Positions 5,245 to 43,403 of a stretch of 43,659 bases of DNA are shown piece after piece (position 1 is the first letter of the stretch; every line of letters starts with the position of its first letter). Origin of the DNA: an uncultured Bacteroidales bacterium (GTDB lineage: Bacteria; Bacteroidota; Bacteroidia; Bacteroidales; UBA4417); assembly GCA_903946925.1 (NCBI GenBank), contig CAJAXK010000164.1, positions 1 through 43,659 on the forward strand. The letters run 5' to 3'. A program made the translations under genes and the position numbers. The notes beneath the pieces are model-generated. The model was not told where the DNA came from. It ran no database searches and saw only the letters and a list, made by a program, of their open reading frames with translations.

Positions 5245-5290
5245 AAGTTGAATTTGTCTCTTTTCTTCAACATAGATTGATTTACCCACA

Positions 5291-6145: not shown

Positions 6146-6289
6146 TTTCATTGTTTTTTGATGAATTTCACCTTCTGTAATAGATAATTTGTTGGGTCTC
6201 ATTCACAAAGTTTACAAATAGATCAGGCTCAAAAGCAGATCCGACAGGATAAAAATTCTTCAAAATATAAATCCCACATCAATACAAAA

Positions 6290-24200: not shown

Positions 24201-24404
24201 GATAGCTTTATCAGGAACGAACTTAATGGCTTCCTCATTGATACATCAAACAGTACTGCATGTGTTTCAGTTGTAAATCTACTTGTAAAAAACAGAATAA
24301 CACTATCGAATGTTGCTTTTAGGGCTGTTTCCGATATTTGTCAATTTTCGCCCATATATTCCGCTAAAAATATCTTGTCCTGTTTATTTGATACCATGCA
24401 ATAA
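21255..24404 (+). CDS. Fusion: methyltransferase, coiled coil, GT2 and GT4 (WsaF-like)
   Basis: 1049-aa protein. Residues 1-200 are a class I methyltransferase (FVELGTHFGNSYF, LLHIDGLHSYESVKHDFE, VLHDTNVHE). Residues about 232-325 are rich in Gln, Leu, Glu and Lys with heptad spacing and look like a coiled coil. Residues about 408-640 are a GT2 domain (VDIIICVHNA, IDDGSQTD, LLNSDT, GYGEENDFCMRSA). Residues about 698-1049 are a GT-B/GT4 domain similar to rhamnosyltransferase WsaF (VLPVTALGGGGNVV, YYIQDYEPYFY, MGLTGMEAMACG). In the last motif the first Glu of the usual E-x7-E pair is Gln (Q958), with E966 kept. It probably adds two sugars and a methyl group, with the coiled coil as spacer or oligomer stalk. 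Confidence 0.85.
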   Translation: MGISNFIFTKPRFNEKPSAWVEHIPFAFFLIEKIKPRIFVELGTHFGNSYFAFCQAISEIKINCKAYAVDQWTGDEQAGNYGGEVFEYVDSIHSNHFAEFSVLLKMTFDEAIANFSNQSIDLLHIDGLHSYESVKHDFENWLPKMSDQGVIVLHDTNVHEKGFGVWKLMEEIRGKYPSLEFVHGHGLGLICVGNNIAPELLEFVGNGKNDFFTLQLFAALGRSISLTSQFNSRKEELQQLSFQLQEQSKLFNLQQEQFINSITNLQIIEANHLIQLDKYEREIHLLNESNQKNQLEIQNKLLTINSLEDELIKTKNQLANRELANLQITNSISWKYTKPFRTVSEAYPGYKRFIHKLLKKHEVGFGKNIESNTHSNLPTLKTDILFGEEVLQKKLQAPNSKIPFHTVSVDIIICVHNALEDVKKCLSSILEYTHPPYQILLIDDGSQTDTQKFLEQFSISQGCKLIRNEKALGYTKAANQGLKASAGSMSMLLNSDTIIGNNEWLDRMICCALSEPEIGIVSVLSNTASWQSVPQIFNGDDWADNSLPNNFSIAQMAKMITIDSISIYPKLPFLNGFCLLIKKDCLHEVGYFDEISFPEGYGEENDFCMRSASKNWKLAVADDVYIYHAQSKSYSTERRQKIAKLSDVALTKKHSADLVSKGVLLCKENLVLHGIRSRVAHFVKLAQTKQESLSKYSTKKILFVLPVTALGGGGNVVIQEIRALRSMQVDCYIANKSEYRFSFESAYEIDDIPVVYFDSIDSLGLQLDYFDAVIGTAWTSIEWIREAIQITKSNILSAYYIQDYEPYFYTEGSKNRKEALSSYSLIQGMKLFTKTEWNRNEVFVNTGLESTIIHPSLNMDIFRPLLDKSFTNKIYITAMVRPETPRRAPELTLQTLKEIKGQFNNEVEIITFGCDQQEPLILKYKDEFDFNHFGVLTPEQLSILFNKSHIFIDMSEFQAMGLTGMEAMACGNSVILPIQGGSDSFIRNELNGFLIDTSNSTACVSVVNLLVKNRITLSNVAFRAVSDICQFSPIYSAKNILSCLFDTMQ

Positions 24405-25429
24405 TGAAAGAAGTATATATACTACCAGAGTTTTGGGACAAGAGCCATATTGGAGCATGTGGATGGATCCGATTATTAAACCCATTGCTGGCCTCTACAT
24501 TCCAACCGTCGTTTCGTGTGCAATATGGCTATGATATTGATTTAACAAACCATCTGGATATTGTTATATTTGAGCGTTTATGGCATCCGATGGCTGTTGA
24601 CATAGATTATACCCGAAAATTATTAAAAGATTTAAAAGCAATAAAAACCAAAATCGTTTATAGCATAGATGATAATCTTTTTGACTACCACTATACTCAA
24701 AAGAGCGATTGGTTCAAATCTAAGCATTTATCCTTGCTTCATCTTTTTCTACATTATGCTGATTTGGTGGTTGTTTCAACTGAAGCTTTAAAGGAGAGAA
24801 TCTCCAATTACCATCCGAATATTGAAGTAATAAAGAATGTGATCCACATACCTGAACGTATTTATCCTCAACAAAAGCGAGAAAACAAAACCAAATTCGG
24901 ATATTTACTGTCACCAGACAATATAACTTATTTGTTTCAAATTATTGAACCTTTAAAAGAAGTGCTTTACCAATACAGAAAGGAAGTTGTATTTGAAATA
25001 ATAGGCCATCCGAGCCCACATCTCACCAAACAAATATTCAATGATTTACCCGTAGAGTTTCATTTTCCTCCAGATTCCGCTTATCGAAACTATATTAAAT
25101 GGATTGAAAGAGGCAGGTTATGGGATTTTGGCCTGGCACCAATAAGCAGCAATTCTTTTACAGTTTGTAAATCAGACATGAAATTCCTTGACTTTACACG
25201 TTTGGGAGTTCCAGGAATCTTTACTGATTTCACCCCATATAAAGATGTAAAACAACAATCTGCTGGATACTTGTCTAAAAATGATTGGGATACCAGCATC
25301 AGGTTCATGATTGAAAGCCCTGAAAAACGGGCAATTTTGTTGCACAACGCTGAACATTATGTTTCGTCAGAGCGAAACCCTCAGGTTCAAGCCCGTGAAT
25401 GGCTTGATGTTTTCGATTCTTTAGTCTAA
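24404..25429 (+). CDS. GT-B-type glycosyltransferase
   Basis: 341-aa protein starting at an ATG that shares a base with the previous stop (TAATG), so it is translationally coupled to the 1049-aa fusion. The N-terminal half, with VYILPEFWDKSHIGACGWIR and DIVIFERLWHP, and KIVYSIDDNLFDYHY followed by YADLVVVSTEALKERI, has the look of GT4-like glycosyltransferases in which the acceptor domain ends in a V-S-T segment and the chain crosses to the donor domain. The C-terminal half contains FEIIGHPSPHL, RLWDFGLAPISSNSFTVCKSDMKFLDF and GVPGIFTDFTPY, equivalent to the donor-binding region. The canonical E-x7-E motif is not evident. The sugar is unknown. Confidence 0.8.
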   Translation: MKEVYILPEFWDKSHIGACGWIRLLNPLLASTFQPSFRVQYGYDIDLTNHLDIVIFERLWHPMAVDIDYTRKLLKDLKAIKTKIVYSIDDNLFDYHYTQKSDWFKSKHLSLLHLFLHYADLVVVSTEALKERISNYHPNIEVIKNVIHIPERIYPQQKRENKTKFGYLLSPDNITYLFQIIEPLKEVLYQYRKEVVFEIIGHPSPHLTKQIFNDLPVEFHFPPDSAYRNYIKWIERGRLWDFGLAPISSNSFTVCKSDMKFLDFTRLGVPGIFTDFTPYKDVKQQSAGYLSKNDWDTSIRFMIESPEKRAILLHNAEHYVSSERNPQVQAREWLDVFDSLV

Positions 25430-25459: not shown

Positions 25460-25681
25460 ATGGAAGAAAAAATAAAAATGGTACAGGCAGTGTGTTCTGG
25501 TTTTAAGGTTGCCTATATTGAAATGCCTTTTGAACATGCAGGGATCGAAAGTTTTGACCTGGTAGTTCTAAGGGTTAATTTCGAAAAGAAATACAAGAAA
25601 GCCATTCCTGCCTCTGAATGGTTAAATTATACCTGCATGAAACAGATTTTCGATTTTTATACCAATATTCAGGCAGAATAA
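25460..25681 (+). CDS. Acyl carrier protein (LnmL-like)
   Basis: 73-aa protein with the size and layout of a phosphopantetheine-binding carrier protein. The segment FEHAGIESFDLVVLRV aligns with the carrier core normally written GxDSLdlvel, placing the prosthetic-group serine at S31. A Glu (E30) replaces the usual Asp before it. The following FEKKYKKAIPASEWLNY matches the helix II-III region (E-x-x-F/Y...IP..EW). Its stop overlaps the ATG of the next gene (TAATG). That gene encodes an LnmK-like enzyme, and in leinamycin biosynthesis LnmK works with the carrier LnmL, which supports the call. The acyl group carried is not shown by the sequence. Confidence 0.72.
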   Translation: MEEKIKMVQAVCSGFKVAYIEMPFEHAGIESFDLVVLRVNFEKKYKKAIPASEWLNYTCMKQIFDFYTNIQAE

Positions 25682-26568
25682 TGAATAGTTCGGCATCAAC
25701 ATTCAATAAAGAGTTGACGATAAATATGCCCCAGATGGCAATTGAAGCTCTTTCGGAGAACTGGTTATTCAAGGAAATCGGTGATGTGCATTGGGATTTA
25801 TTATGCAAAGGACTGAATATGAAGTCATCGGAAATAAAAGATGAACTTAACAACCGTCTTTATGCAACATTTGTTAGAATCCGTTTCACAGGAACCCATG
25901 ATTTATCATCGTATAACGAAAGTGAAAAAATACGATTACAGGCCGAAATAAAAAGATTTGGCCATAGTATGTACCACAGTAAAATTGAACTGGAGGCAAA
26001 GGATAAAAAAATTGAAGCTGAATTATTGACCAGTTTTTCGATTAGAAACGACTCCGACAACAGCAAACTTGTTAAAAGTCAACCAATTATAAGTGCCAAC
26101 CAAATTCCGGAGCATGAATCGCTCCCCGAATTTGCCAATCAATATCGTTTGCTCAAAAAAAAAGAAGTCCAGGCAATTGAACTAAACGAAACTGTGTTCG
26201 AACAAACTGACAATTCCATTGCGAGGATTGAATATGAACTTAACCCCTATTATGATTTGAATGGGGTTGGATTATTATACTTTGCTGCTTACCCCATCAT
26301 TAACGATGTTTGTGAAGCGAAGTATTTTAACAAACTGAATAATGATTCCTCGAACTGGGAACTTGCATACAGCACCAAAGCCAGGGATGTTTTCTATTTC
26401 GCGAATTGCAATATCCAGGACAGAATCGAATATGTGTTGCATGATTACCAGTTTTGGGGTCAGAAAATAAAATTGTCAAGTTCGTTGATACGGAAAAGAG
26501 ATGGGGCAATACTTTCAAAAATCTTCACTATCAAAGCACTACGACAAAATGGACAATTACATCGCTAA
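25681..26568 (+). CDS. LnmK/Pnap_2097-family acyltransferase/decarboxylase-like protein
   Basis: 295-aa protein starting at the ATG that overlaps the carrier-protein stop. A longer version from the ATG at 25618 is open, but it would run through the carrier gene. NKELTINMPQMAIEALSENW, then WLFKEIGDVHWDLL, NRLYATFVRIRFTG and a second half with KARDVFYFANCNIQDRIEY match what I recall of the LnmK/Pnap_2097 biosynthetic families, which have a double hot-dog fold. LnmK converts methylmalonyl-CoA to propionyl on its carrier protein. The pairing with a carrier protein is the same here. Whether this enzyme decarboxylates, only transfers, or uses another acyl-CoA is inference. It precedes a membrane acyltransferase system. 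Confidence 0.7.
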   Translation: MNSSASTFNKELTINMPQMAIEALSENWLFKEIGDVHWDLLCKGLNMKSSEIKDELNNRLYATFVRIRFTGTHDLSSYNESEKIRLQAEIKRFGHSMYHSKIELEAKDKKIEAELLTSFSIRNDSDNSKLVKSQPIISANQIPEHESLPEFANQYRLLKKKEVQAIELNETVFEQTDNSIARIEYELNPYYDLNGVGLLYFAAYPIINDVCEAKYFNKLNNDSSNWELAYSTKARDVFYFANCNIQDRIEYVLHDYQFWGQKIKLSSSLIRKRDGAILSKIFTIKALRQNGQLHR

Positions 26569-26657
26569 AAAGTGAAAATTATTAATCATTAAATGATATA
26601 ACATAATAAAATTGTTCAAAATACTGTGTTTACAGAAATAAGTGAGGGTATTACAAT

Positions 26658-28730
26658 ATGAAACTTAAAATTGGGATTTTACTCGCTTGCTTGGGCCTGA
26701 TAATTGGTTTTACTGGCTTGTACTATTATACAACACCTTTATCTGTCAACAAAGCACGAGAATCCAACAGACCAATCGGATTTATAACCAAAGGAAAGTT
26801 ATATGTTCAGAAGGCCCGTGTAAACCGGAATTACATATATGGTCTCGAGCTAAAATTAGCAACTTGGAACAGGGAAAACCATAATACCACACAATTGGTT
26901 GTTTTCAACAATCAAGATGAAATACTTTTTCAAAAATCCATCAAAGCTGAGGAAATTAAAGACAACCAATTTCATGAAATCAGTTTCGGAAAGAGTATTT
27001 TTTGCGGGAATGAAGACTACCTTTTCATAGGATTATACTCTGATGATGGAACAAATGAAAATAGTATCACAATGTGGTGCGATACCTTAGCTGATCAAGG
27101 TTCATTATCCGTAATGCATTATGATGGTGGCCGATTATCAACAGCAATTGAGCAAAACCATGAAACCATGCTACAGGGTAGTATGTGCTATAATATTCAT
27201 GAATCCTCATTACCATGGTCTTTGAAAAATATTTTGATATGCAGCGTTCTCATCATTCTACTGGCAAGCATTACCCTACTTTATTTTATAGTTATAAGAA
27301 GGTTCAGCCCTTTACAGAAATTAAAGCCGGAAATTGTATTTTTATGCATCGCCTTGCCTTTTGGGATTTCTTTTATGGTCTTTACCAAACCCTTCAGTGC
27401 ACCCGATGAACCTGGCCATTTTCTAAGGGCATATCAGGTTTCCGAACTCAATATCTTCAAAAAGGAGCAGGTGTTCCTTTCCTCAATCGGCAATTTTGTA
27501 ATTGATGCAAGAAAATTCCAATCGCATAAAATGGATTCCAGGATATTAAAAGAAATGTCAATGTATTATCCTGATTCAGGGAAAACCTTTAAATACTGGA
27601 CTTACGATTTGTATGTCCCTTATATTCCACAGACAATTGGAATTTCTATCGGAAAAATGCTCAACCTTTCTCCTTTGTGGCTTTACAACTTGGGGCGATT
27701 ATCAAATCTTCTTTTTGCAATAACATTGATATACTTTGCAATTAAAATAATCCCCACTACAAAATGGATGCTGGTTTTCATCGGATTGATGCCAATGTCC
27801 GTTTACTTATTCTCAACTATATCGCATGATGCATTTACGATTAGTTTTACATTTTTATTATTTTCCTACATTTTGTATTTAGCCTCTCCAAAAGTCGAAA
27901 AACTCAAGAAAAAGGATTTTGTAGTCCTTATTTTACTAATTCTGATGTCATCTTTGGGCAAGTTGCCGTATAACTTCATTGGATTACTATTTCTAATTAT
28001 CCCAATAATAAAAGCAGCCTCCAGGAAAAAGTATATTATATATTTTGCTGTACTGATTATCATGCTTATATGTGGTTATTCATCCTTCTATTTCATCCGT
28101 AATATGCTAAATTATGAGCCATTATTGGATTTACCGATGGTATATACCCAACTCGGGGATAAAAGCAAAAACCTGCCCATAATTTTGAATGACATCCCAC
28201 GATTTATCGGCCTAATTGCAGATGATATCCTTTTTCTTAGCACCAAATTATATCTGATTGGTTGTTATGGCACTTTCGGGAAACTTGAATATCCATTATC
28301 CTACTCAATGACAATATGCTTTTTTATTTGTCTGATCCTTTATACTTTAACCGGAAATGAAACATCTTTCCGACTTAAACCCTTTCAAAGAATGTTTATC
28401 CTGATGGTCTTTGTAATGTGTATAGGGCTAATAATGACCGCATCATATTTATACTTCACTCCAATCGGTTGCAATCGGATAGCAGGTATTCAGGGAAGGT
28501 ATTTCATCCCACTTTTACCGCTTGCAGGTCTAAGTATTTATGGATTATTACCTTTTTTTTCTTCAAAAGTAAACCAATTATCTGTTTTAAATAGGATTGG
28601 AATTGAAGGAAAATTGAAATTTATCGAATTCAATTCCAGATTAAATAAGTTTCTTCAATTCGTATTGATCTGTTTTTCGGTTTCTTCATTATTATTTTCC
28701 TTAGCAATCCTTTATGTAGCTTACTTCTAA
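26658..28730 (+). CDS. DUF2142 multi-pass membrane protein with extracytoplasmic N-domain
   Basis: 690 aa. An N-terminal membrane helix (about 5-25) is followed by a soluble domain (about 35-185) that should lie outside the inner membrane, then many hydrophobic helices from about 190 to the end. FSAPDEPGHFLRAYQVSE (from about 246) is the DUF2142 signature, a family of polytopic proteins in glycan loci that looks GT-C-like. The N-terminal domain has ELKLATWNREN, EIKDNQF and DDGTNENSITMWCDT, and the AlgX-like protein at 30249 has ELATWNRTN, SIKDNSF and EDGQDNNCITAWTDT at the same spacing. A membrane glycosyltransferase or flippase-like role is possible. The true activity is unknown. Confidence 0.78.
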   Translation: MKLKIGILLACLGLIIGFTGLYYYTTPLSVNKARESNRPIGFITKGKLYVQKARVNRNYIYGLELKLATWNRENHNTTQLVVFNNQDEILFQKSIKAEEIKDNQFHEISFGKSIFCGNEDYLFIGLYSDDGTNENSITMWCDTLADQGSLSVMHYDGGRLSTAIEQNHETMLQGSMCYNIHESSLPWSLKNILICSVLIILLASITLLYFIVIRRFSPLQKLKPEIVFLCIALPFGISFMVFTKPFSAPDEPGHFLRAYQVSELNIFKKEQVFLSSIGNFVIDARKFQSHKMDSRILKEMSMYYPDSGKTFKYWTYDLYVPYIPQTIGISIGKMLNLSPLWLYNLGRLSNLLFAITLIYFAIKIIPTTKWMLVFIGLMPMSVYLFSTISHDAFTISFTFLLFSYILYLASPKVEKLKKKDFVVLILLILMSSLGKLPYNFIGLLFLIIPIIKAASRKKYIIYFAVLIIMLICGYSSFYFIRNMLNYEPLLDLPMVYTQLGDKSKNLPIILNDIPRFIGLIADDILFLSTKLYLIGCYGTFGKLEYPLSYSMTICFFICLILYTLTGNETSFRLKPFQRMFILMVFVMCIGLIMTASYLYFTPIGCNRIAGIQGRYFIPLLPLAGLSIYGLLPFFSSKVNQLSVLNRIGIEGKLKFIEFNSRLNKFLQFVLICFSVSSLLFSLAILYVAYF

Positions 28731-28745
28731 GAAAACAGGATAAAG

Positions 28746-30227
28746 ATGCCTTTCAATTCTATCACTTTCATTTACTTTTTTCTACCACTTAGCCTAATTG
28801 CTTATTATCTTGTTCCCCCTAAATTCAGGAATACGATATTATTGATTTCAAGTCTGGTGTTTTATGCCTGGGCTGGAATAGCTTTTCTATTCTTATTGGT
28901 TTTCTCCTCTATCATCAACTTCATTTTTTTTGTTTCTATTAGCCGCAACCGAAACCCAAGAACGAGAAACAAACTTTTTGTCTTTGGAGTAATTTTCAAT
29001 GTTCTGTTTTTGTTCGTTTTTAAATATTTACCAGCTATCAATGTGGCAATTGGGCTTTCTGATGTTGGTACACATATTTTAGGGATAAATAGTATTGTTT
29101 TACCTTTAGGAATATCTTATTACACTTTCAAAGCTATCAGCAGTTTGGTCTATATCAATGGTTCTACTAATGATGATGGGGTTAATTTGATAGATTACTT
29201 GGTATATTTAACAATGTTTCAGCAAATTGCATCAGGCCCGATTGACCGATACCAAAAGTTAAACTCACAAATCTACCACCGGAACCCAACTGCTGGGCAA
29301 TTTATTTCAGGGATCAGAAGATTTGCCCTTGGCTTATTTAAAAAGGTCATTATTTCTGGTCCTTTAGGTATTATCTCAAGTCAGATATTTGCTATTTCAC
29401 CAGAGAATTTATCTACACCAATAGCTTGGTTAGGAGCAATTACTTTTGCACTTCAGGTTTATTATGATTTTTCTGGCTATACGGATATGGCCATTGGATT
29501 GGGGAAATTTTTTGGATTTGAGTTTTCCGAGAACTTCAATTTCCCTTTTGTATCCCGATCTATCAAAGAATTTTGGAGAAGATGGCATATCACCTTGTCT
29601 AACTGGTTGCGCGATTACATATTTCAACCATTGGCCTATTCGCTTAATTTAAAGTTAGATGCAGAATCGTACTTTTGGATTAGAAAATCAGATTTGATTT
29701 ATTACGCGACTACGGTATTGACTTTTCTTTTATGCGGTATTTGGCATGGTGCAACATGGCCGTTTATCATTTGGGGGTTGATACATGGTTTGCTTGTTTC
29801 ATTTGAAAAAACAAAAGCAGGGAAATGGGTATGTACACGCTACAAAATAGTCGGGCATATATATTTTCTTTTCTTTATAACAGTAAGTTTTGTGGTTTTT
29901 CAGGCAAAAACCATGGATTCAGCCGTACAATATCTTGGTACTATGCTTGGTTTTGGTTCAGGGGAGATTTATTGGCCTTCTTTAACACAATATATCGACC
30001 GTGAAACTTCCATCATTTATGTTTTGGCAATTTTGGGAGCAACCACAATTCTTGACAAAATAAATTCCAGCATACCTGTTTTTGATTTGAACAACAAAAG
30101 ATTACAGAAGATTTATAATTCATCCTATCATTTAATTATTTATTTCGGTATAGCAATGACAATACTTTTATCCACTATAATCATTATTTCAGGCACAAGT
30201 AATTCATTTCTTTATTTCCAGTTTTAA
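28746..30227 (+). CDS. MBOAT O-acyltransferase (AlgI/DltB-like)
   Basis: 493-aa integral membrane protein of the MBOAT family, which moves acyl groups across or at the inner membrane onto exported glycans. Landmarks are the N-terminal helices FNSITFIYFFLPLSLIAYYL and LISSLVFYAWAG, YYDFSGYTDMAIGLG, EFWRRWHITLSNWLRDY (H281) and LLCGIWHGATWPFIIWG. The histidine in WHGAT (H334) is the conserved catalytic one. AlgI is usually paired with AlgJ/AlgX, and DltB with the carrier DltC and with DltD. Here the next gene is AlgX-like, and a carrier protein lies about 3 kb upstream. Length and motifs look intact. Confidence 0.92.
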   Translation: MPFNSITFIYFFLPLSLIAYYLVPPKFRNTILLISSLVFYAWAGIAFLFLLVFSSIINFIFFVSISRNRNPRTRNKLFVFGVIFNVLFLFVFKYLPAINVAIGLSDVGTHILGINSIVLPLGISYYTFKAISSLVYINGSTNDDGVNLIDYLVYLTMFQQIASGPIDRYQKLNSQIYHRNPTAGQFISGIRRFALGLFKKVIISGPLGIISSQIFAISPENLSTPIAWLGAITFALQVYYDFSGYTDMAIGLGKFFGFEFSENFNFPFVSRSIKEFWRRWHITLSNWLRDYIFQPLAYSLNLKLDAESYFWIRKSDLIYYATTVLTFLLCGIWHGATWPFIIWGLIHGLLVSFEKTKAGKWVCTRYKIVGHIYFLFFITVSFVVFQAKTMDSAVQYLGTMLGFGSGEIYWPSLTQYIDRETSIIYVLAILGATTILDKINSSIPVFDLNNKRLQKIYNSSYHLIIYFGIAMTILLSTIIIISGTSNSFLYFQF

Positions 30228-30248
30228 GACACAAAAAACGTTTCATCA

Positions 30249-32045
30249 ATGGCCACACTTTTTAATCGTCGGTTTTTTATTTTCACTGCCTTCATCGCCG
30301 GGTACATTTGTATTGCACTGACATTTGCGTCTTTCCACAGGAATTACAACTTTAAACCTGTTCTTATACCCAAAGGAGAGCATAATAAACCTTTGGGTAG
30401 AATTATTGCCGGTACTGTATTTATTCAAGAGATACAAATGCATAACGACTTCCTGTGTGCTATTGAAATTGAACTGGCCACCTGGAACAGAACCAACAAA
30501 AATCGCAACAAACTGGTTATTTTAGACAATGGTTTTACTATTCTGCAAGAAATCGAATTTCAATCTGACAGTATCAAAGACAATAGTTTTCGTTCTTTCT
30601 TTTTTAAAAAACCAATTGAAATTGGCAAGGACAAGCATTTTTTCGTTTGTCTTTTATCTGAGGATGGACAAGATAACAATTGCATCACTGCGTGGACAGA
30701 TACAGTTGCTACAACAGGTAAACTCTATCAGGAATCAATTTCAAAATTAGGTCTTCAAGAAACAGTTAAAACAAGGAAAAACCTTTTAAAAGGAAGTTTA
30801 CAGATTAAAACCATTGAATCAGAAAAAACCGGTTTTATAATGGCTTTCTTATTTATGTTTTGCTTACTCGGTATATCCACGGTGCTAATCTATAAATTGA
30901 AAGGGGACCAAACAGTCAGAAGTATTGAATTAATCTTATTAATATTTTTTGTCATCTCACTTTTAACTCCGTCTTTGTACTTCATATTCATGCAAACTGA
31001 AAAAAAAGAAAAAAGTAATTGGGAAAAGAGGATGTTGGCAACAAAACCTGTATTTGATATCCGAAACTTGGGTGAGTATCTTCCACAAATGCAAAGCTTT
31101 ATAAATGACCATATCCCTTTCCGAGACGAAATTATATCGTATAAAGCAGGCTTTTACTATAAATATTTTAAAAAATCCAGTTTCCCAAATATCTCAGTGA
31201 TAGGAAAAGAGGGTTGGATTTTTAGAACAGGCGAAAAAGATGCGATAGAAGGAAACAGAGATATTTCTAAAGATGAAATTTTAGAGATTGTAAAAATTTT
31301 ACACACTCGAACCGAATACTACAAGAAAATTGGAATACATTTCTATGTTGCTCTTATACCCATGAAAACTGAATTATACAAAGAATTCTTACCTTCATAT
31401 TATTCGCAATCTGTGAAAGATAACTATGTAAATGAAATAAGAAGTGAAATAAAGAAGGATACTTTGGTCAGATTCATTGACCTTTTACCCTCATTAATGG
31501 ATGCGAAAGCAGAAGGCCAGATATACTATAAGAATGACATGCACTGGACTCCCTTTGGTGCTTTTTCCGCATATAAAGATATCATTAATCATATTAAAAA
31601 AGATTTCCCTCATGTTCAACCGATAGAAGGCAATCAAATTGAATTTCAATATGCAGGTAAAATTTCTTGGGGAGATGCTATTGAACTCTGCATTCAAGAT
31701 TATGTATCTGAACCATATTATTTTATCAAATTAAAAAAAATCCCTAACGCAAAAAACTGTAATAAGAAGGGGTATCTTCCTCAACCAAAATTTCATTTAC
31801 CAAATGAATACGAGATACATAGATGTAGTTCAAACGCGGCAATGCCTAATATTGTAATAATAAGAGATTCATTTTATCAAACATTGGTTGAATTGACAAG
31901 TGAAAATTTCAATAATTCTCTTTTTATATGGGATAATTGGGAATATGGAATTAATGAAGAAATCATCAAAAAAGAAAAACCTGACATCGTATTACTGGAG
32001 GCATATATCGGATTTCTGCCAAATATCTTAAAAGCGAACAAATAA
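30249..32045 (+). CDS. AlgX/AlgJ-like SGNH acyltransferase with extra N-terminal domain
   Basis: 598 aa. A signal-anchor helix (about 7-25) is followed by a soluble domain (about 40-185) shared with the DUF2142 protein, then two further hydrophobic helices (about 195-215 and 225-247), and a C-terminal SGNH-like domain (about 260-598). NDMHWTPFGAF gives the Asp-x-His pair (D430, H432) and IIRDSFYQ the serine (S541), matching the AlgX/AlgJ catalytic triad. AlgX transfers acetyl to alginate in the periplasm after AlgI and AlgJ. This protein is much longer than AlgJ because of the N-terminal domain and two extra helices. It follows the MBOAT gene by 21 bases and probably receives acyl groups from it. 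Confidence 0.85.
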   Translation: MATLFNRRFFIFTAFIAGYICIALTFASFHRNYNFKPVLIPKGEHNKPLGRIIAGTVFIQEIQMHNDFLCAIEIELATWNRTNKNRNKLVILDNGFTILQEIEFQSDSIKDNSFRSFFFKKPIEIGKDKHFFVCLLSEDGQDNNCITAWTDTVATTGKLYQESISKLGLQETVKTRKNLLKGSLQIKTIESEKTGFIMAFLFMFCLLGISTVLIYKLKGDQTVRSIELILLIFFVISLLTPSLYFIFMQTEKKEKSNWEKRMLATKPVFDIRNLGEYLPQMQSFINDHIPFRDEIISYKAGFYYKYFKKSSFPNISVIGKEGWIFRTGEKDAIEGNRDISKDEILEIVKILHTRTEYYKKIGIHFYVALIPMKTELYKEFLPSYYSQSVKDNYVNEIRSEIKKDTLVRFIDLLPSLMDAKAEGQIYYKNDMHWTPFGAFSAYKDIINHIKKDFPHVQPIEGNQIEFQYAGKISWGDAIELCIQDYVSEPYYFIKLKKIPNAKNCNKKGYLPQPKFHLPNEYEIHRCSSNAAMPNIVIIRDSFYQTLVELTSENFNNSLFIWDNWEYGINEEIIKKEKPDIVLLEAYIGFLPNILKANK

Positions 32046-32096: not shown

Positions 32097-33266
32097 ATGG
32101 AACTCACCATATTAATGCCGTGTTTAAACGAAGCAGAAACTTTGTCGATTTGTATCCAAAAAGCCAGAACATTTCTTTCAAAATACAATATAGAAGGTGA
32201 AGTTCTGATTGCCGACAACGGAAGTACCGATGGATCGGTTGATATTGCTTTAAAAGAAGGTGCAAGAATCACCCATGTAAAGGAAAAAGGATACGGAAAT
32301 GCCTTGAAAGAAGGGATCAAAGAAGCCAAAGGAAAGTTTGTTATCATGGGCGATGCCGATGATAGTTATGACTTTTTACATCTCGAAGAAATTCTTGAAA
32401 AACTAAGGGAGGCAAACGATCTTGTTATGGGCGACCGTTTTGCGGGAGGAATAAAATCAGGGGCAATGCCTTGGTTACATAGGTATATTGGGAACCCAAT
32501 ACTTTCATTTATTGGAAGATTGTTTTTCAAAGCCCACATACATGATTTTCATTGTGGCCTCAGAGGCTTTAACCGTGAACGTATCATTAAACTCCGATTA
32601 ATTACACCAGGGATGGAATTTGCTTCTGAAATGGTTGTAAAAGCATGTATATCGAACTATGAAATCGCCGAAGTTCCAATAGTACTTTATAAGGATGGAC
32701 GAACAAAGCCACCTCATTTGAATACTTGGCGGGACGGTTGGCGACATCTTACATTTCTGCTCATGTATAGTCCAAAATGGCTTTTCTTTTTTCCTGCCTT
32801 AATTCTATTGCTACTATCAGGTACCGGAGTGATTGCGCTGCTGCCAGGAATAGTGAAAGTAAATGCTATTTCGTTTGATATTCATACACTTACAATTGCA
32901 GGATTTTTAATTGTACTCTCGTACCAACTATTTCTATTTGCTGCTTTCGTGCGTATATATTCCTTGAATCATGGATTGTATCCTGTTGGGGTTAAACATC
33001 TATACTTCTTTAAAATTTTTACTTTAGAAAGAGGTTTAGCAATGGGTTTCATCTTTTTTTTTATTGGTATAATATCTTTTTTTTATTTGCTAAATTTTTG
33101 GAGCAGTAAAAATTATGGGGAAATTGATAATATCAGGTTCACTTTCAGAATATTAATACCATCTATTACTTTGATCTCCATTGGCATTCAAACCATTTTT
33201 TCAAGCTTTATTCTTAGAATCATTGGCATCAACCCTAACGTAAACTACAAGAATGAAACACATTGA
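32097..33266 (+). CDS. Polyprenyl-phosphate sugar synthase (DPM1-like GT2) with C-terminal membrane helices
   Basis: 389-aa family 2 enzyme. LTILMPCLNEAETLSICI, IADNGSTDGS, GYGNALKEGI and VIMGDADDSYDF (the metal DADD) match polyprenol-phosphate mannose/glucose/GlcN synthases, as does HDFHCGLRGFNRERI. The last third contains about four membrane helices, as in ArnC/GtrB-type proteins. The product would be a polyprenyl-phosphate-linked sugar, used on the outer face by a GT-C transferase. The DUF2142 protein at 26658 is one candidate user in the window. Its last codons overlap the next gene's start by 14 bases. Confidence 0.87.
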   Translation: MELTILMPCLNEAETLSICIQKARTFLSKYNIEGEVLIADNGSTDGSVDIALKEGARITHVKEKGYGNALKEGIKEAKGKFVIMGDADDSYDFLHLEEILEKLREANDLVMGDRFAGGIKSGAMPWLHRYIGNPILSFIGRLFFKAHIHDFHCGLRGFNRERIIKLRLITPGMEFASEMVVKACISNYEIAEVPIVLYKDGRTKPPHLNTWRDGWRHLTFLLMYSPKWLFFFPALILLLLSGTGVIALLPGIVKVNAISFDIHTLTIAGFLIVLSYQLFLFAAFVRIYSLNHGLYPVGVKHLYFFKIFTLERGLAMGFIFFFIGIISFFYLLNFWSSKNYGEIDNIRFTFRILIPSITLISIGIQTIFSSFILRIIGINPNVNYKNETH

Positions 33267-33810
33267 CCGAATAATACAAAAACACAGATTTTTAGTTGCT
33301 TCCAACGAAATTAATTCAAACAGTAGCATACTGGATATTGGATGTCATCAAGGCGAACTCTTTGAATTCCTAGAAAAGAAAAACATTAGAGGCATCGGAC
33401 TTGATAATTTGCTTGAGGAGCCAAAAACCCTCAGAAATGGAGAAATCAGTTTGATAAAATCATATTTCCCTAATGAAAGTTTAAAAGGCTTACGGTTTGA
33501 TTACATAACAGCTTTAGCTGTATTCGAACATATTCAACTTAACGAACAAATCGTAATCGCTCAGTCATGCTATGAATTGCTGCATAAGGGAGGGAAATTG
33601 ATCATAACAATTCCCCATCCCTTTGTTGATTATATCCTTGATGCCCTGCTAAAATTTAGGCTTATTGATGGGATGAGTCTTGAGGAGCATCAAAACATCA
33701 AACCTAAGCAAGTTGTTGAAAATATTCTTGCATCAGGTTTAATTTTAGTCAAACATCAAAAATTCCAGTTAGGATTAAATAATTTGATCGTATTTGAAAA
33801 GCCTTTCTAA
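33253..33810 (+). CDS. Class I SAM-dependent methyltransferase
   Basis: Compact 185-aa methyltransferase. SILDIGCHQGELFEFL is motif I (SAM binding), GIGLD is motif II, and FDYITALAVFEHI together with LLHKGGKLIITIPHP complete the core. The start ATG lies inside the end of the previous gene. There is no acceptor-specific domain, so the substrate cannot be assigned from sequence. It sits close upstream of a sulfotransferase and of wzt, so it could methylate the glycan, possibly at the chain end. Confidence 0.85.
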   Translation: MKHIDRIIQKHRFLVASNEINSNSSILDIGCHQGELFEFLEKKNIRGIGLDNLLEEPKTLRNGEISLIKSYFPNESLKGLRFDYITALAVFEHIQLNEQIVIAQSCYELLHKGGKLIITIPHPFVDYILDALLKFRLIDGMSLEEHQNIKPKQVVENILASGLILVKHQKFQLGLNNLIVFEKPF

Positions 33811-33872: not shown

Positions 33873-35369
33873 ATGACAACATTCTATTTTCACATTGGCC
33901 AGGCTAAAACAGGCACTAGTGCAATACAGAGTTTCTTAAATCACAACAGAAAATTGCTCGCCACCAAATATTCCGTACTATATCCAAATTTCGATCAGGA
34001 TGATTTTACAGAAGGTGATCTACATAACCATGGCCACTTTTTTGAACAAACCAAAGATGACCTTGATCTCTGCATTTTAAAGTTTAATAAATGTGCCCAA
34101 TATGCAAGTAACTGTGAAATGAACAGCGTTATCATTAGCTTTGAGGGGTTTGAATGGGAATGGTGGCCGTCTCTTATCGCAAAGATAGTTCAGGAACTTA
34201 AGTTGGAATATAAGATAATATTATATTTACGGCGACAAGATACATATCTTGAAGCAGCTTGGAAACAATGGGGACACAAAATTAAGGATTGCAAAAATAT
34301 CCATGAATTTAAAGCGATTTCTAATTTACAGTGGCTTGAAACAACACAAAGATGGCTTAACCACCTTGACATAAGGGCTTTCATTGTAAAGCCGTACGAA
34401 AAAAAAACAATTGGAACCGATGTAGTGAAAGATTTTCTCGCAACTTTAAATATTAATGACATTAGTACATTTTCAACTCCGGAATCATGTTTTAGAAATG
34501 AAAATCATGGACTAACTTCGGAAGTTATTGAAATATTGAGACTTTGTAGTATTTCGGTTGATAATCCCAACAACCATGGCTTATTAAGTTTTATTTATCT
34601 TTCGCTTTCCGAAAAATTCAAGAAAGCCCCGATGGAATCATATCAAATTCTTTCGCCAATTGAAAGGATTCAAATAATCGAAGAATTTACTCCTTCAAAC
34701 AACAAACTTGCTGAGATTTTCTGGGGAAAAGGGATACCTCTTTTTAGCGAACCTCTGCCAGACATCAACGCCCCCTGGGAAAAGAATTCTGAATTAACTC
34801 TTGAGAAAGTGATACCAATTTTGATGGAAATCCTTATTTCACAATCCAATCAGATAGAATTTCTTAAGCAACAGAACCAAAATATGCCAACATTGCTGGA
34901 AGACCATAAAATTCAATCCAATGAAGTGCTTATTTTGAAAAATCAAATAAAAGATTTGCAAAATTCGGTTTTTCACAATTTATTATTTTGTTCCTTTCCA
35001 AAAGAGATATTTCAAAAAAGTAAATTCAATCAGCAAATTTTAGTTACACGAAAAACAGATGACTTACTCGAAATTATTATAACAGGTGAAGATCCTCAGA
35101 TTATTCTTCCAGCTTTTAGATTATCAAAGCGCCCAATGATGCTCATCATTGATCTAACCTCATCAATTGCTGGAAAAGCACAAATATATTTTCTTACCTC
35201 CCGATGCAAGAATTATTCTGAGTCAAATTCTATTATTAGTCCATTTCCGGATGGCAGAAATCCTATCAGTTTTATTATCCATGAACACGATCTCCGGGGT
35301 AGATTAAGACTTGATTTTGAACAAAACGAAAGCGCAATACAAATCCATTCAATTTGCGGTAAAAATTGA
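33873..35369 (+). CDS. PAPS-dependent sulfotransferase-like protein with C-terminal domain
   Basis: 498 aa. The start FYFHIGQAKTGTSAIQSFLN contains the 5'-phosphosulfate-binding loop of sulfotransferases (AKTGTS, about 11-16). IILYLRRQDTYLEAAW (about 115-130) fits the 3'-phosphate-binding segment. The catalytic domain spans about 1-290. A Gln/Asn/Lys-rich linker that may form a short coil follows (about 310-365), then a C-terminal domain (about 370-498) of beta-strand character, with IIITGEDPQIILPAF and LRLDFEQNESAIQI. That C-domain is not recognised. No PAPS synthesis genes are present, so PAPS would come from elsewhere in the cell. The glycan is the likely acceptor because of the location just before the exporter. 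Confidence 0.78.
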   Translation: MTTFYFHIGQAKTGTSAIQSFLNHNRKLLATKYSVLYPNFDQDDFTEGDLHNHGHFFEQTKDDLDLCILKFNKCAQYASNCEMNSVIISFEGFEWEWWPSLIAKIVQELKLEYKIILYLRRQDTYLEAAWKQWGHKIKDCKNIHEFKAISNLQWLETTQRWLNHLDIRAFIVKPYEKKTIGTDVVKDFLATLNINDISTFSTPESCFRNENHGLTSEVIEILRLCSISVDNPNNHGLLSFIYLSLSEKFKKAPMESYQILSPIERIQIIEEFTPSNNKLAEIFWGKGIPLFSEPLPDINAPWEKNSELTLEKVIPILMEILISQSNQIEFLKQQNQNMPTLLEDHKIQSNEVLILKNQIKDLQNSVFHNLLFCSFPKEIFQKSKFNQQILVTRKTDDLLEIIITGEDPQIILPAFRLSKRPMMLIIDLTSSIAGKAQIYFLTSRCKNYSESNSIISPFPDGRNPISFIIHEHDLRGRLRLDFEQNESAIQIHSICGKN

Positions 35370-35390: not shown

Positions 35391-36689
35391 ATGTCAAAAG
35401 AACCTGCCATCATCGTAAATTCCATATCAAAAACTTACAAGCTTTATCACTCCAGATATGATATTGTCAAGGAGTTAGTCAATCCTTTAGGGAGGAAATA
35501 TCACAAAAAGTTTGAAGCACTTAATGATATATCATTTGATGTCGAAAAAGGGGAAGTGCTCGGTATTATTGGACAGAACGGAAGCGGGAAATCTACACTC
35601 TTAAAAATTCTTGCTTCAGTTGTAACCCAAACTTCAGGGGAATATTTCTGCAACGGCAGGGTAACGGCCTTGCTGGAACTCGGAGGAGGGTTCAACATGG
35701 AACTTTCCGGAATCGAAAACATTTATTACTTGGGAGCAATACAAGGATATTCGAAAAAAGAAATGGCTGGTAAACTTAAGCAGATATTGGATTTTGCAGA
35801 TATTGGCGAGTATGCTTTTCAACCGGTGAACACCTATTCGAGCGGTATGTATGTGAGGCTGGCTTTTTCGATGGCCATAAATATTGAACCCGACATACTT
35901 ATCACCGACGAAGCCTTGTCTGTTGGCGACATCAGGTTTCAACAAAAATGTTTCAGGAAAATCAGGGAATTTAAAGATGCTGGAAAAACAATCCTGATCT
36001 GTACACATAGCCTATCAGCTATCAACGACTTTTGCACTAAAGCTATTTGGCTTCACGAAGGTAAAATAAAGGTTCAAGGCGATCCATATTTTGTTACCGA
36101 AAGCTATAATACATTTATGCTTTCGCAAAATGGACATGCAACCCTGACAGGTTCAAATAGAAAATCGGAAATAAGTAGCCTTCCAAATTATCCTATTGAA
36201 TATCCCACATTGATGTGGCAAAACTTGGGCAATTGCGAAAGTTACGGCATAGGAAATGTCGATCTGCAATATGCTGCTTTGGCCGAAAAAAGCACTTTGC
36301 AACATATAAAAGAATTTAAAGGCGGTGAGCAGCTTCGGCTTTTCTTAAAATTAAACATTGTTGATAAAATTGAAAAAGCAAGAATCAATCTGACCCTAAA
36401 TGGAAATTTTGGCGGTTCGGTGTTAAAAATCAACAGCCAAAATTATTCTCAAAATCTTACTTTACGGGGAGGAACTACCCATGTTATTTCCATTGATTTC
36501 GATTTCCCCCATATTGGCAACGGACGATATACTTTTTCGTTCGGTGTATTATCGATAGAAAATAAAATTGAGCAACATCTCCATTGGGTTCATGATGGAT
36601 TGATCATCGAAGTAAACAATCCTAGCATCCATTATAAAACCGGAGCACAAATTGTGGTTAAAGAAGCCACTTTTAAAGTTTTGGATTAG
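35391..36689 (+). CDS. wzt: Wzt: ABC-transporter ATPase with C-terminal glycan-binding domain
   Basis: 432-aa ATPase of the O-polysaccharide exporter. Walker A GQNGSGKST (about 61-69), signature TYSSGMYVRLAF (about 148-159), Walker B DILITDEA (about 168-175) and the switch histidine in ICTHSLSAIND are intact. Residues about 265-432 form the extra C-terminal domain, in E. coli O8/O9a a jelly-roll that recognises a terminal modification such as a methyl group on the finished chain. The extension here implies that the exported glycan must carry an end mark. It is encoded upstream of wzm, unlike the usual wzm-wzt order. Confidence 0.93.
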   Translation: MSKEPAIIVNSISKTYKLYHSRYDIVKELVNPLGRKYHKKFEALNDISFDVEKGEVLGIIGQNGSGKSTLLKILASVVTQTSGEYFCNGRVTALLELGGGFNMELSGIENIYYLGAIQGYSKKEMAGKLKQILDFADIGEYAFQPVNTYSSGMYVRLAFSMAINIEPDILITDEALSVGDIRFQQKCFRKIREFKDAGKTILICTHSLSAINDFCTKAIWLHEGKIKVQGDPYFVTESYNTFMLSQNGHATLTGSNRKSEISSLPNYPIEYPTLMWQNLGNCESYGIGNVDLQYAALAEKSTLQHIKEFKGGEQLRLFLKLNIVDKIEKARINLTLNGNFGGSVLKINSQNYSQNLTLRGGTTHVISIDFDFPHIGNGRYTFSFGVLSIENKIEQHLHWVHDGLIIEVNNPSIHYKTGAQIVVKEATFKVLD

Positions 36690-36739
36690 CTGCAAACTAT
36701 TACCTGCCACGAAATATTTATTGATAATAACAATTTCAA

Positions 36740-37555
36740 ATGCGCCTGATAAACAAAATTCATAGCTTCACTCACTCGATGCTTGAGCAGCGCACAGTAC
36801 TATACACCTTGGTGGTGCGCGATTTTAAAAGCCGTTACCTTTCTTCGTTTGTAGGCCTGCCATGGGCTTTTATACAACCTTCGGTTTATGTGTTTATTAT
36901 TTGGTTTGCTTTTACATTCGGACTTCGTACAGGGAACACCACAACCGGAGTTCCTTTTGCAGCATGGCTATTGGTTTCCATGATTCCTTGGTTGTTTATA
37001 GGGCAAACCATGATTGTAAGTTGCATGGCTTTGCCCGAATATTCGTATCTGATAAAAAAAACCAAGTTTAATGTAAGTTTCATCCCGATTATCAAAATAC
37101 TGTCGGGAATGGCTGTGCATTTAACAATGGTCTTGATAATAGTATTTATCCTTATTTTTAACTTTAAAATCTATCCTACCATATTTTGGATTCAGATTTT
37201 CTACTATCTATTTGCAACCTTTGTATTGCTTTCGGGCATAGCATGGTTTGTGGCTTCAGTAAATGTATATATCAAAGACATGGCACATATTGTGAACATA
37301 GTAGTTTCGATGCTGTTTTGGGCAACCCCTATAGTGTGGCCATACAGTATGCTCAACGGAAATTACCGCTATATCGCCCTGCTCAACCCTTTTTTTTATA
37401 TCACCGAAGGGTATCGTTATACCTTTATTGAAAACAGATGGTTTTTTGAATTCCCTGAAATGAATTTCTATTTCTGGACACTTACCGGAATAATTTTTAC
37501 TATTGGGGCTTTAACATTTAAAAGGTTAAGGCGAAATTTTGGAGATGTTCTGTAA
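36740..37555 (+). CDS. wzm: Wzm: ABC-2 type O-polysaccharide export permease
   Basis: 271-aa membrane component of the exporter, about six helices, ABC2_membrane type. VVRDFKSRYLSSFVGLPWAF is the N-terminal amphipathic interface helix and entry region, and SGIAWFVASVNVYIKDM and LFWATPIVWPYSML are typical of Wzm/TagG proteins. It works as a dimer with two Wzt chains to move a lipid-linked glycan across the inner membrane. It starts 50 bases after wzt. The following gene is an RgpF-type protein, a frequent neighbour of this transporter class. Confidence 0.92.
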   Translation: MRLINKIHSFTHSMLEQRTVLYTLVVRDFKSRYLSSFVGLPWAFIQPSVYVFIIWFAFTFGLRTGNTTTGVPFAAWLLVSMIPWLFIGQTMIVSCMALPEYSYLIKKTKFNVSFIPIIKILSGMAVHLTMVLIIVFILIFNFKIYPTIFWIQIFYYLFATFVLLSGIAWFVASVNVYIKDMAHIVNIVVSMLFWATPIVWPYSMLNGNYRYIALLNPFFYITEGYRYTFIENRWFFEFPEMNFYFWTLTGIIFTIGALTFKRLRRNFGDVL

Positions 37556-41501: not shown

Positions 41502-43403
41502 ATGAGCACACCCGAACCAGGATTAAACAACATTTACTACCCATCGAAAGAGGTAGTTAAAAAAGCTGCAGTCAAAGATTATGACTCGCTTTATCAAAAA
41601 TCAATTGACAACCGGGAGGATTTCTGGGCTGCCGAGGCAAAAAAGCTGGATTGGTTTAAAAAATGGGACAAAGTGCTTGACGACAGCGAAAAGCCGTTTT
41701 ACAAATGGTTTACAGGTGGGCAGATTAATATTATTCACAATGCCTTGGATAGGCACCAGAAAAATGCTACACGAAACAAACTGGCAATTATCTGGGAAGG
41801 GGAGCCTGGCGATGTACGCACATTTTCGTACCACGCTCTTAATAGGGAAGTTACCAAGTTTTCGAATGTGCTCAGGGCTATGGGTGCAAAAAAAGGCGAG
41901 GTGGTAACCATTTATATGCCACAAATACCTGAATTGGTGATTTCGATGCTGGCCTGTGCCAAAATTGGGGCTGTTCACAGCGTGGTTTATGGCGGTTATA
42001 GCGTTGAAGCACTGGCTGAACGTATCGAAGATGCAAAAAGCCGCATACTTATTACCGCCGATGGTGGTTTTAGGCGTGGCAAACCAACCAAACTAAAAAC
42101 CATAGCCAACGAAGCCATGCAACGCTCGGCAACTATAGAAGTATGTATTGCTGTAAAACGAACCGGTGAAGAATGTTATATGGAAAACGACCGTGATTTT
42201 TGGTATCATGATTTGATGGGAATGCCTTTAGCCAACACCAACTGTTGCACCGAAAAAACCAATGCCGAAGATCCGCTTTTCATTTTATATACATCCGGCA
42301 CAACCGGTAAACCAAAAGGCCTTGTTCATACTCATGGCGGTTATTCTGTTTATACTTCTACCACACACAGATATGTTTTCGATATAAAAGCCGAAGACCG
42401 TTGGTGGTGTGCCGCCGATCCAGGTTGGATTACCGGCCATAGCTACATTGTTTACGCCCCGTTAATTAATGGAGCCACCATAATGATGTACGAAGGAGCA
42501 CCAAACCATCCATACCCTAACCGTTGGTGGCAAATAGTGGAACGCTATGGAATAAATATTCTGTACACCTCCCCTACTGCCATCCGTGGGCTGATGCGTT
42601 TCGGTTCTTCGTGGGCCGACCGCCACGATTTGAGTTCGCTGCGTTTGTTAGGTTCGGTAGGCGAACCAATAAACCCGGAAGCGTGGAAATGGTATTACGA
42701 AGTAATTGGGAAAAGCCGTTGCCCAATCATGGATACATGGTGGCAAACCGAAACCGGGGGATTTATGATTTCACCAATCCCAACCATGCCACTTAAACCA
42801 GGTTCGGCTGCAAAACCGTTTTTTGGAAACGAAGTTGCCATTGTTGACGAAAACGGGACAGAAGTAAAAACCGGTGAAGAAGGCAACCTTGTTATTAAAA
42901 ACCCATGGCCAGGCATGGCACGTACCATTTTAGGGGATCCTGACAGGTATGTAGAAAAATATTGGGAAAAATATGCCACGCAAGGCTGGTATCTGGCAGG
43001 CGATTCGGCACGAAAAGATGAAGATGGGTATTACTGGATTATAGGGCGTATTGACGATGTGATAAAAGTAAGCGGATATCGCTTAGGTTCTGCCGAAATT
43101 GAAAGCGCTTTGGTAAGCCATCCCATGGTAACCGAAGCCGCCGCAATTGCCCTTCCTGATGATTTGCGTGGAAATATTATCCATACAACCGTAATTTTAA
43201 GGCAAGGTGCAACAGCAAGCCCCGCCTTGGCCGAAGAGTTGAAAACCCATGTAGAAAAAGAAATTGGCCCTATCGCCCGCCCTGCATTTGTTGAGTTTGC
43301 CGACACACTACCTAAAACCCGCTCAGGGAAAATCATGCGCAGGGTAATCAAAGCCAGGGTTTTAGGCTTAGATACAGGCGATATAACAGCTTTGGAAGAA
43401 TAG
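41502..43403 (+). CDS. acs: Acetyl-CoA synthetase (AMP-forming)
   Basis: 633-aa ANL-superfamily ligase that activates acetate with ATP and CoA to acetyl-CoA. LYTSGTTGKPKGLVHTHGGY is the P-loop region, WWCAADPGWITGHSYIVYAP and MDTWWQTETGGFM (the acetate-pocket tryptophan motif) are present, and the C-terminal LPKTRSGKIMRR contains the lysine needed for adenylation and open to acetylation control. Length matches the family (about 630-650). Its base composition is visibly less AT-rich than the glycan genes, and it looks like a housekeeping gene outside the locus. The acyl preference for acetate over propionate is inferred from the WW motif. Confidence 0.93.
   Translation: MSTPEPGLNNIYYPSKEVVKKAAVKDYDSLYQKSIDNREDFWAAEAKKLDWFKKWDKVLDDSEKPFYKWFTGGQINIIHNALDRHQKNATRNKLAIIWEGEPGDVRTFSYHALNREVTKFSNVLRAMGAKKGEVVTIYMPQIPELVISMLACAKIGAVHSVVYGGYSVEALAERIEDAKSRILITADGGFRRGKPTKLKTIANEAMQRSATIEVCIAVKRTGEECYMENDRDFWYHDLMGMPLANTNCCTEKTNAEDPLFILYTSGTTGKPKGLVHTHGGYSVYTSTTHRYVFDIKAEDRWWCAADPGWITGHSYIVYAPLINGATIMMYEGAPNHPYPNRWWQIVERYGINILYTSPTAIRGLMRFGSSWADRHDLSSLRLLGSVGEPINPEAWKWYYEVIGKSRCPIMDTWWQTETGGFMISPIPTMPLKPGSAAKPFFGNEVAIVDENGTEVKTGEEGNLVIKNPWPGMARTILGDPDRYVEKYWEKYATQGWYLAGDSARKDEDGYYWIIGRIDDVIKVSGYRLGSAEIESALVSHPMVTEAAAIALPDDLRGNIIHTTVILRQGATASPALAEELKTHVEKEIGPIARPAFVEFADTLPKTRSGKIMRRVIKARVLGLDTGDITALEE

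Follow-up and report, generated by a model that had tools for sequence, protein, structure and literature searches.

What does an acyl carrier protein paired with an LnmK-type enzyme, otherwise known from polyketide chemistry, do upstream of a membrane-bound O-acyltransferase (MBOAT) in a polysaccharide locus? The question is raised by a 43,659-nucleotide contig (CAJAXK010000164.1, hereafter the window) from the genome of an uncultured Bacteroidales bacterium (GCA_903946925.1), in which positions 25,460 to 32,045 hold a cassette of five genes. The original prediction for this cassette proposed a route resembling teichoic acid D-alanylation (Dlt), with the carrier feeding the MBOAT. The gene linkage recurs in other genomes, and from the protein families involved the cassette is probably a carrier-fed route of glycan O-acylation.

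All five predicted reading frames were found in their places, forming a tight run on the + strand with intergenic gaps of 0, 89, 15 and 21 bases. The first gene (25460..25681, +) encodes a 73-aa acyl carrier protein (ACP) with a predicted phosphopantetheine serine, S31 (codon 25550-25552), within the motif GIESFD. Its stop codon shares one base with the ATG of the second gene (25681..26568, +), which encodes a 295-aa acyltransferase/decarboxylase of the LnmK family (Pnap_2097-type) with Tyr61 (25861-25863) and Asn194 (26260-26262); an alternative longer frame starting at 25618 is also open. They are followed by genes for a DUF2142 membrane protein (26658..28730, +), a 493-aa MBOAT (28746..30227, +) with His334 in GIWHG (29745-29747) and a C-terminal FLYFQF containing Tyr490 (30213-30215), and a 598-aa AlgX/AlgJ-like SGNH protein (30249..32045, +) with D430 (31536-31538), H432 (31542-31544) and S541 (31869-31871). 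The residues S31, H334, D430, H432 and S541 named in the original prediction are all correct in the translations.

The second gene product scores above the cut-offs of both NCBIfam models, TIGR04098 LnmK_bifunc (156.1 bits, cut-off 100) and TIGR04099 Pnap_2097 (127.6 bits, cut-off 125), the latter a model that NCBI classes as a hypothetical equivalog. A single-sequence search of the Protein Data Bank (PDB) gave a weak LnmK match (E 0.043), and a profile of 22 sequences matched solved LnmK with E 6e-17, placing Tyr61 on LnmK Tyr62, which we take to be the active-site tyrosine, and Asn194 on an asparagine. Tyr61, Asn194 and His37 are invariant in 27 out of 27 aligned domains, including that of the window. 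According to the available part of PMC8666670, decarboxylation by LnmK uses a loop asparagine, the loop being like that of MadB, and from its place in the alignment we infer that Asn194 is this catalytic residue. The fold was modelled on a carrier-fused relative from locus L008, whose LnmK part is 53% identical to the window protein, the latter being present as a row of the alignment. The model has a mean pLDDT of 82.5 (five models span 54 to 82.5), and in the PDB it is matched best by seven LnmK entries (lowest E 6e-19, TM 0.73 by target) and after them by acyl-ACP thioesterases; the modelled relative is about 15% identical to solved LnmK. Curated model, profile and the fold of the fused relative all place the 25681 product in the LnmK family, and the expected active-site tyrosine is present. 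It should be noted that the L008 record is titled as a Bifidobacterium breve metagenome-assembled genome; its proteins appear bacteroidotal by eye, and it is probably a misbinned contig.

We searched sampled, partly overlapping genome sets for proteins above the TIGR04098 cut-off. Such proteins are encoded by 2 of 395 genomes of the phylum, 2 of 295 of the order and 1 of 16 of the family (the own genome, G000, being included in each count), by 1 of 98 in the order to which genome G358 belongs, by 9 of 398 in the family that includes L003 (a Saprospiraceae record) and by 6 of 397 in that of L002 (Blastomonas), where 22 of 397 are reached at E 0.001. With L008 added, this yielded 20 loci in 19 genomes, and the open reading frames around all of them were viewed. 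A further 26 plasmid records carry a relative, eight of which were examined, one without annotation.

A carrier is fused or adjacent to the LnmK-type domain by profile in 18 of the 20 loci, 13 of which trained the profile. It is a separate gene adjoining LnmK in eight loci (the window, L003, L004, L006, L007, L057, L058 and L059) and constitutes the N-terminal part of the LnmK polypeptide in five (L002, L008, L020, L021 and L056), these being the 13 training carriers; in another five, L060–L064, which were not used in training, it is the middle domain (profile E 6e-10 to 6e-6). L005 has no carrier, its contig beginning 371 bases upstream, and in L055 an ACP follows LnmK within a polyketide synthase (PKS) protein by eye (one of 20 loci). 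There, LnmK, ACP-like and ketosynthase-like stretches lie by eye in one frame (4626-6659) that reaches the contig end and resembles a polyketide synthase module in which LnmK does the loading. The window carrier itself scores 16.5 bits with PF00550, below the gathering cut-off of 20.8. Among the relatives scanned, the carriers of L006, L007, L008 (fused, 23.4 bits), L060, L062 and L064 exceed this cut-off, those of L061 and L063 fall below it, and that of L021 gives no match at 0.01. In sequence comparison the window carrier is close to the fused carriers of L008 and L002. The serine of the DS/ES motif occupies the same site in 13 out of 13 aligned carriers and is kept in the five middle-domain carriers (in L063 by eye), and in the model of the L008 carrier part it starts a helix (31-45), all of which agrees with S31 as the predicted phosphopantetheine site.

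Two types of acyltransferase accompany this carrier–LnmK pair. An MBOAT is present at six of the 20 loci, that is, in five besides the window (L003, L006, L057, L058 and L059), as the predicted linkage of the pair to MBOAT genes demands. The gene order is MBOAT-ACP-LnmK-SGNH-like in the tight runs of L057 and L059 and SGNH-like-ACP-LnmK-MBOAT in L058; in L003 and L006 the MBOAT is divergent from ACP-LnmK. An SGNH-like gene also precedes the carrier in L007. A hexapeptide acyltransferase is present at eight loci: adjacent in L002 (21.1 bits, below Pfam's 27), L008 (PglD type) and L056 (55 aa remaining where the contig starts), and joined into single hexapeptide-carrier-LnmK polypeptides in L060–L064. 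Hexapeptide enzymes include GlmU, LpxA and LpxD, the last two of which use acyl-ACP. Outside the 20 loci, a Roseobacter litoralis plasmid has a glycan locus in which hexapeptide and LnmK domains are fused; the carrier profile detected no carrier there. The L060–L064 proteins, from genomes of the Blastomonas family, carry hexapeptide domains of two or more kinds, and some of them stand beside housekeeping-looking genes, which suggests that they may acylate something other than a surface polysaccharide.

The association is unlikely to have arisen by chance. In nine of the 19 genomes, together 41.3 Mb, we counted 29 MBOATs; the probability that one lies no more than 2 kb from a randomly chosen position is then p ~0.003, and that of six of 20 loci P ~2e-11, or 2e-5 if only three independent cases are allowed. 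None of 26 other MBOAT regions in nine of these genomes (about 1 kb on each side where the contig allows) holds a carrier frame at E 0.01, compared with the carrier linkage at 18 of 20 LnmK-type loci, and a chance association was set aside. On an MBOAT tree of 32 rows, carrier linkage needs at least three changes, three also when well supported branches alone are considered; the carrier-linked groups are the window, L003/L006/L057/L059, and L058. On the LnmK tree (27 rows), the hexapeptide label is clustered, with two changes and none of 500 shuffles as low.

The three membrane and extracytoplasmic components of the cassette belong to families known from glycan acylation or share a domain with them. 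The MBOAT matches PF03062 (81.5 bits, cut-off 27), and its C-terminal residues 488-493, FLYFQF, constitute the FXYXXF motif of MBOAT-SGNH systems. Its best matches among solved structures by sequence are DltB chains (6bug, E 3e-27), and it scores 178.3 bits with the DltB equivalog model TIGR04091, below the cut-off of 375; by sequence the protein is DltB-like, not DltB. The AlgX-like protein matches PF16822 ALGX over the cut-off (75.7 bits), and its solved-structure matches are AlgJ (4o8v, E 7.5e-11), then PatB1 and AlgX. The DUF2142 protein, itself over the cut-off of PF09913 (167.4 bits), has an N-terminal ectodomain in common with the AlgX-like protein (32% identity, E 7e-26); the copies lie at 26727..27215 and 30336..30833 on the + strand and are the only two found in a search of the own genome, which ties the DUF2142 protein to the cassette. 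A model of this ectodomain built from two sequences reached a mean pLDDT of 78 (the other four models, 30-47) and is a predicted beta-sandwich with weak matches that include carbohydrate-binding modules (CBMs), a porphyran-binding CBM being the top one (E 1.4e-3). Since the model is built from two sequences and the matches are weak, a glycan-binding role of the ectodomain is a guess.

Several observations weigh against the carrier-fed reading. The chance estimate ignores the attraction of MBOATs to glycan loci, and L003 and L006 are closely related. Because of its very long branch, the window MBOAT is not placed with confidence on the MBOAT tree. On the LnmK tree, the MBOAT label requires five changes compared with a shuffled mean of 5.5, with 207 of 500 shuffles as low, and at least two changes by well supported branches; it is no more clustered than expected from shuffling. 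The carrier-linked MBOATs reach 147-178 bits with the DltB model, all below the cut-off of 375, in a comparison confined to the linked proteins. The C-terminal motif was considered as a marker of carrier-linked MBOATs and rejected: strict FXYXXF ends occur in all six of them and also in 24 of the 26 other MBOATs (of the remaining two, one ends in YIYFQF and one is cut by the contig end), so that the motif supports an acyl relay and not carrier use. Six of the 20 loci, L004, L005, L007, L020, L021 and L055, show neither type of transferase; a contig end lies less than 1 kb away in L004, L005, L007 and L020, and L055 is the PKS locus. The SGNH-like partners in the Saprospiraceae loci L003, L006, L007 and L057–L059 were recognized by motif and position, none of the SGNH library models being over its cut-off for them, and in L003 and L006 the SGNH-like gene is on the opposite strand to the MBOAT with another gene between. 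Finally, it is the linkage of the genes that was observed, and the enzyme chemistry, the acyl group and the acceptor are deduced; the acyl group could also be acetyl, from malonyl-CoA, or another.

With these reservations, the following sequence of events can be proposed for the cassette. A phosphopantetheinyl transferase would prime the carrier at S31. The LnmK-like enzyme would then move an acyl group from CoA, most probably from (2R)-methylmalonyl-CoA, to the carrier and decarboxylate it, giving propionyl-carrier. On the cytoplasmic side the DltB-like MBOAT would draw the acyl group from the carrier and, by analogy with PatA and Dlt, hand it via His334 to its own Tyr490 on the outer face. 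The AlgX/AlgJ-like protein would accept the acyl group on Ser541 and place it on a hydroxyl of the polysaccharide presumably made by the locus. The DUF2142 protein, with its shared ectodomain, is likely a part of the same machine. In the relatives that have hexapeptide acyltransferases, the carrier–LnmK module would feed these enzymes, which presumably act in the cytoplasm.

Among the nearest described counterparts is the Dlt system (DltA, DltB, DltC, DltX and DltD), in which, according to the available text of PMC12148441, DltB takes its substrate from the carrier DltC. The cassette is similar in combining a carrier, a DltB-like MBOAT and an SGNH protein. In contrast to Dlt, its loader is of the LnmK type with no adenylating DltA in the cassette, its predicted acceptor tyrosine is on the MBOAT itself and not on DltX, and it stands in a glycan locus of a bacteroidote. 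An MBOAT with a C-terminal FXYXXF and an SGNH partner is likewise a feature of the O-acetylation systems PatA/PatB and AlgI/AlgJ/AlgX. In the available part of the same source, PatA acetylates the motif tyrosine from acetyl-CoA and the motif passes the acetyl group to PatB, whereas the cassette has a dedicated carrier and loader beside its MBOAT. The pair LnmK/LnmL of leinamycin biosynthesis (LrgK/LrgL in largimycin) resembles the cassette in family, fold, active-site tyrosine and a carrier gene adjoining the loader (PMC9396626, in its available part); however, the leinamycin pair stands with polyketide beta-alkylation genes and the cassette pair with a glycan acyltransferase. MadA/MadB feeding GlmU is another case where a hot dog decarboxylase provides a short acyl-ACP for a sugar acyltransferase, as far as described in the accessible text of PMC8666670. 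Unlike the cassette, it relies on the general ACP, housekeeping pathways and a single hot dog domain per chain, without a dedicated carrier, carrier fusion or MBOAT.

A combination of a carrier with MBOAT/SGNH or hexapeptide glycan genes was not described in the literature searched, in agreement with the original prediction; that literature was mostly without subscription papers, and absence is hence not proven. Pnap_2097 was not mentioned in it either, and among the listed titles of LnmK-acyltransferase papers none concerned glycans. The cassette thus looks like a variant of MBOAT-SGNH glycan acylation whose carrier-fed, LnmK-loaded form is new. As for the Dlt-like route proposed originally, its observable parts, namely the MBOAT linkage, the LnmK family and the lack of DltA in the cassette, hold up, and the remainder is retained as a proposal.

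The identity of the acyl group is the point on which the closest alternative differs. We slightly favor propionyl, as LnmK/LrgK point to methylmalonyl-CoA and propionyl (available part of PMC9396626). The own genome has adjacent frames scoring 470 and 789 bits with PF01642 that match both methylmalonyl-CoA mutase subunits; the first of them scores 549 bits with the small-subunit model TIGR00642, below its cut-off of 617, a model that has matches in 16 of 18 genomes and none over the cut-off in the 18. A PF01642 match of some kind occurs in 17 of the 19 module-bearing genomes and one of more than 700 bits in 12, including five of the six with an MBOAT-type locus. With 12 of 19, mutase presence was rejected as settling the acyl identity. 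In further evidence against propionyl, no full-length mutase was found in G799 (MBOAT-type locus) and G1315 (hexapeptide-type), genomes that may be incomplete or use propionyl-CoA carboxylase. A hint at methylmalonyl-CoA as the family substrate comes from two distant members on Caballeronia and Burkholderia anthina plasmids, in which the Pnap_2097-family gene overlaps scpA, encoding methylmalonyl-CoA mutase (L014 7971-10879 and L017 7971-10942). These clusters have MSMEG_0565-0572-type genes and are presumably Nit1C clusters.

In a less likely version of the same route, malonyl-CoA or malonyl-carrier would be decarboxylated to acetyl-carrier, as by MadA/MadB, and the MBOAT would make an O-acetyl glycan. 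Acetyl is the usual glycan acyl group, and the limited count of strong mutase matches also fits this version, as do the hot dog decarboxylases MadA/MadB, which yield acetyl-ACP, and the sugar N-acetyltransferase GlmU, which prefers acetyl-ACP to acetyl-CoA (both according to the available part of PMC8666670). Conversely, LnmK, which gave the curated family its name, works on methylmalonyl-CoA; the genes of two distant family members overlap one for a mutase, although in a third, L016, no mutase gene follows; and with acetyl-CoA abundant a decarboxylating loader would seem costly.

It is rather unlikely that the carrier and LnmK serve a cytoplasmic enzyme N- or O-acylating a nucleotide sugar, with the MBOAT and AlgX-like protein forming a separate acetyl-CoA-dependent unit nearby. 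This explanation draws on the eight relatives that pair the module with a presumably cytoplasmic hexapeptide acyltransferase, and on a DegT-type aminotransferase in the window that could make an amino sugar. However, a Pfam scan of 32 window genes, the part of the genome searched, revealed no hexapeptide or GNAT acyltransferase, although three of these genes (6290-7333, 24404-25429 and 33873-35369) are without any match at 1e-3; moreover, the MBOAT lies within the tight carrier–LnmK run in L057, L058 and L059, and by the tree its linkage arises more than once. A role of the pair in polyketide or fatty-acid metabolism, with its place in the glycan locus an accident, is very improbable: LnmK-type genes do occur in PKS clusters in L011, L012 and L055, and on the LnmK tree the L055 gene shares an unresolved group of 21 rows with the window gene, but none of the 32 scanned window genes has a ketosynthase or other PKS domain, and the association with O-acyltransferases recurs.

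Returning to the carrier-fed reading, the repetition or fusion of the cassette parts in relatives looks like an undescribed way to decorate surface glycans. There is about an even chance that Bacteroidota and Alphaproteobacteria share a general module: a short acyl group, propionyl, would be generated on a dedicated carrier through decarboxylation by an LnmK-type enzyme and then used by interchangeable acyltransferases, either cytoplasmic hexapeptide proteins (even as three-domain chains) or MBOAT-SGNH pairs. If the proposal is correct, Dlt would be joined by another MBOAT route fed from a carrier, one with no need for an adenylating enzyme, the donor side of glycan acylation would be modular with a loader known from polyketide chemistry, the Pnap_2097 family would gain a function, and propionylated surface glycans detectable by mass spectrometry would be predicted. 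The three-domain hexapeptide-carrier-LnmK proteins, being single chains with no evident membrane part, are suited to testing this idea.

The surroundings of the cassette were examined by the Pfam scan of the 32 window genes (own genome, 6.17 Mb). It lies inside a large glycan locus with many GT2 and GT4 enzymes, methyltransferases, the DegT aminotransferase, a Wzt-type ATPase with Wzt_C, an ABC-2 permease and an O-antigen-ligase-type protein. A GT2 glycosyltransferase and a methyltransferase adjoin the cassette (32097..33810, +), and the Wzt-type ATPase and permease follow (35391..37555, +). Relatives of all four are present in L003 (GT2 51%, methyltransferase 41%, ATPase 36% and permease 29% identical), the last two adjoining LnmK there, which fits modification of an ABC-exported glycan. 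The likely acceptor is the glycan exported by this ATPase and permease. The only AMP-binding enzyme among the scanned genes (41502-43403) has ACAS_N and is of the acetyl-CoA-synthetase type; DltA was not sought elsewhere in the genome. Between these two pairs, the gene at 33873-35369, one of the three without a Pfam match, encodes a 498-aa protein whose start, IGQAKTGTSAIQSFL, looks sulfotransferase-like by eye.

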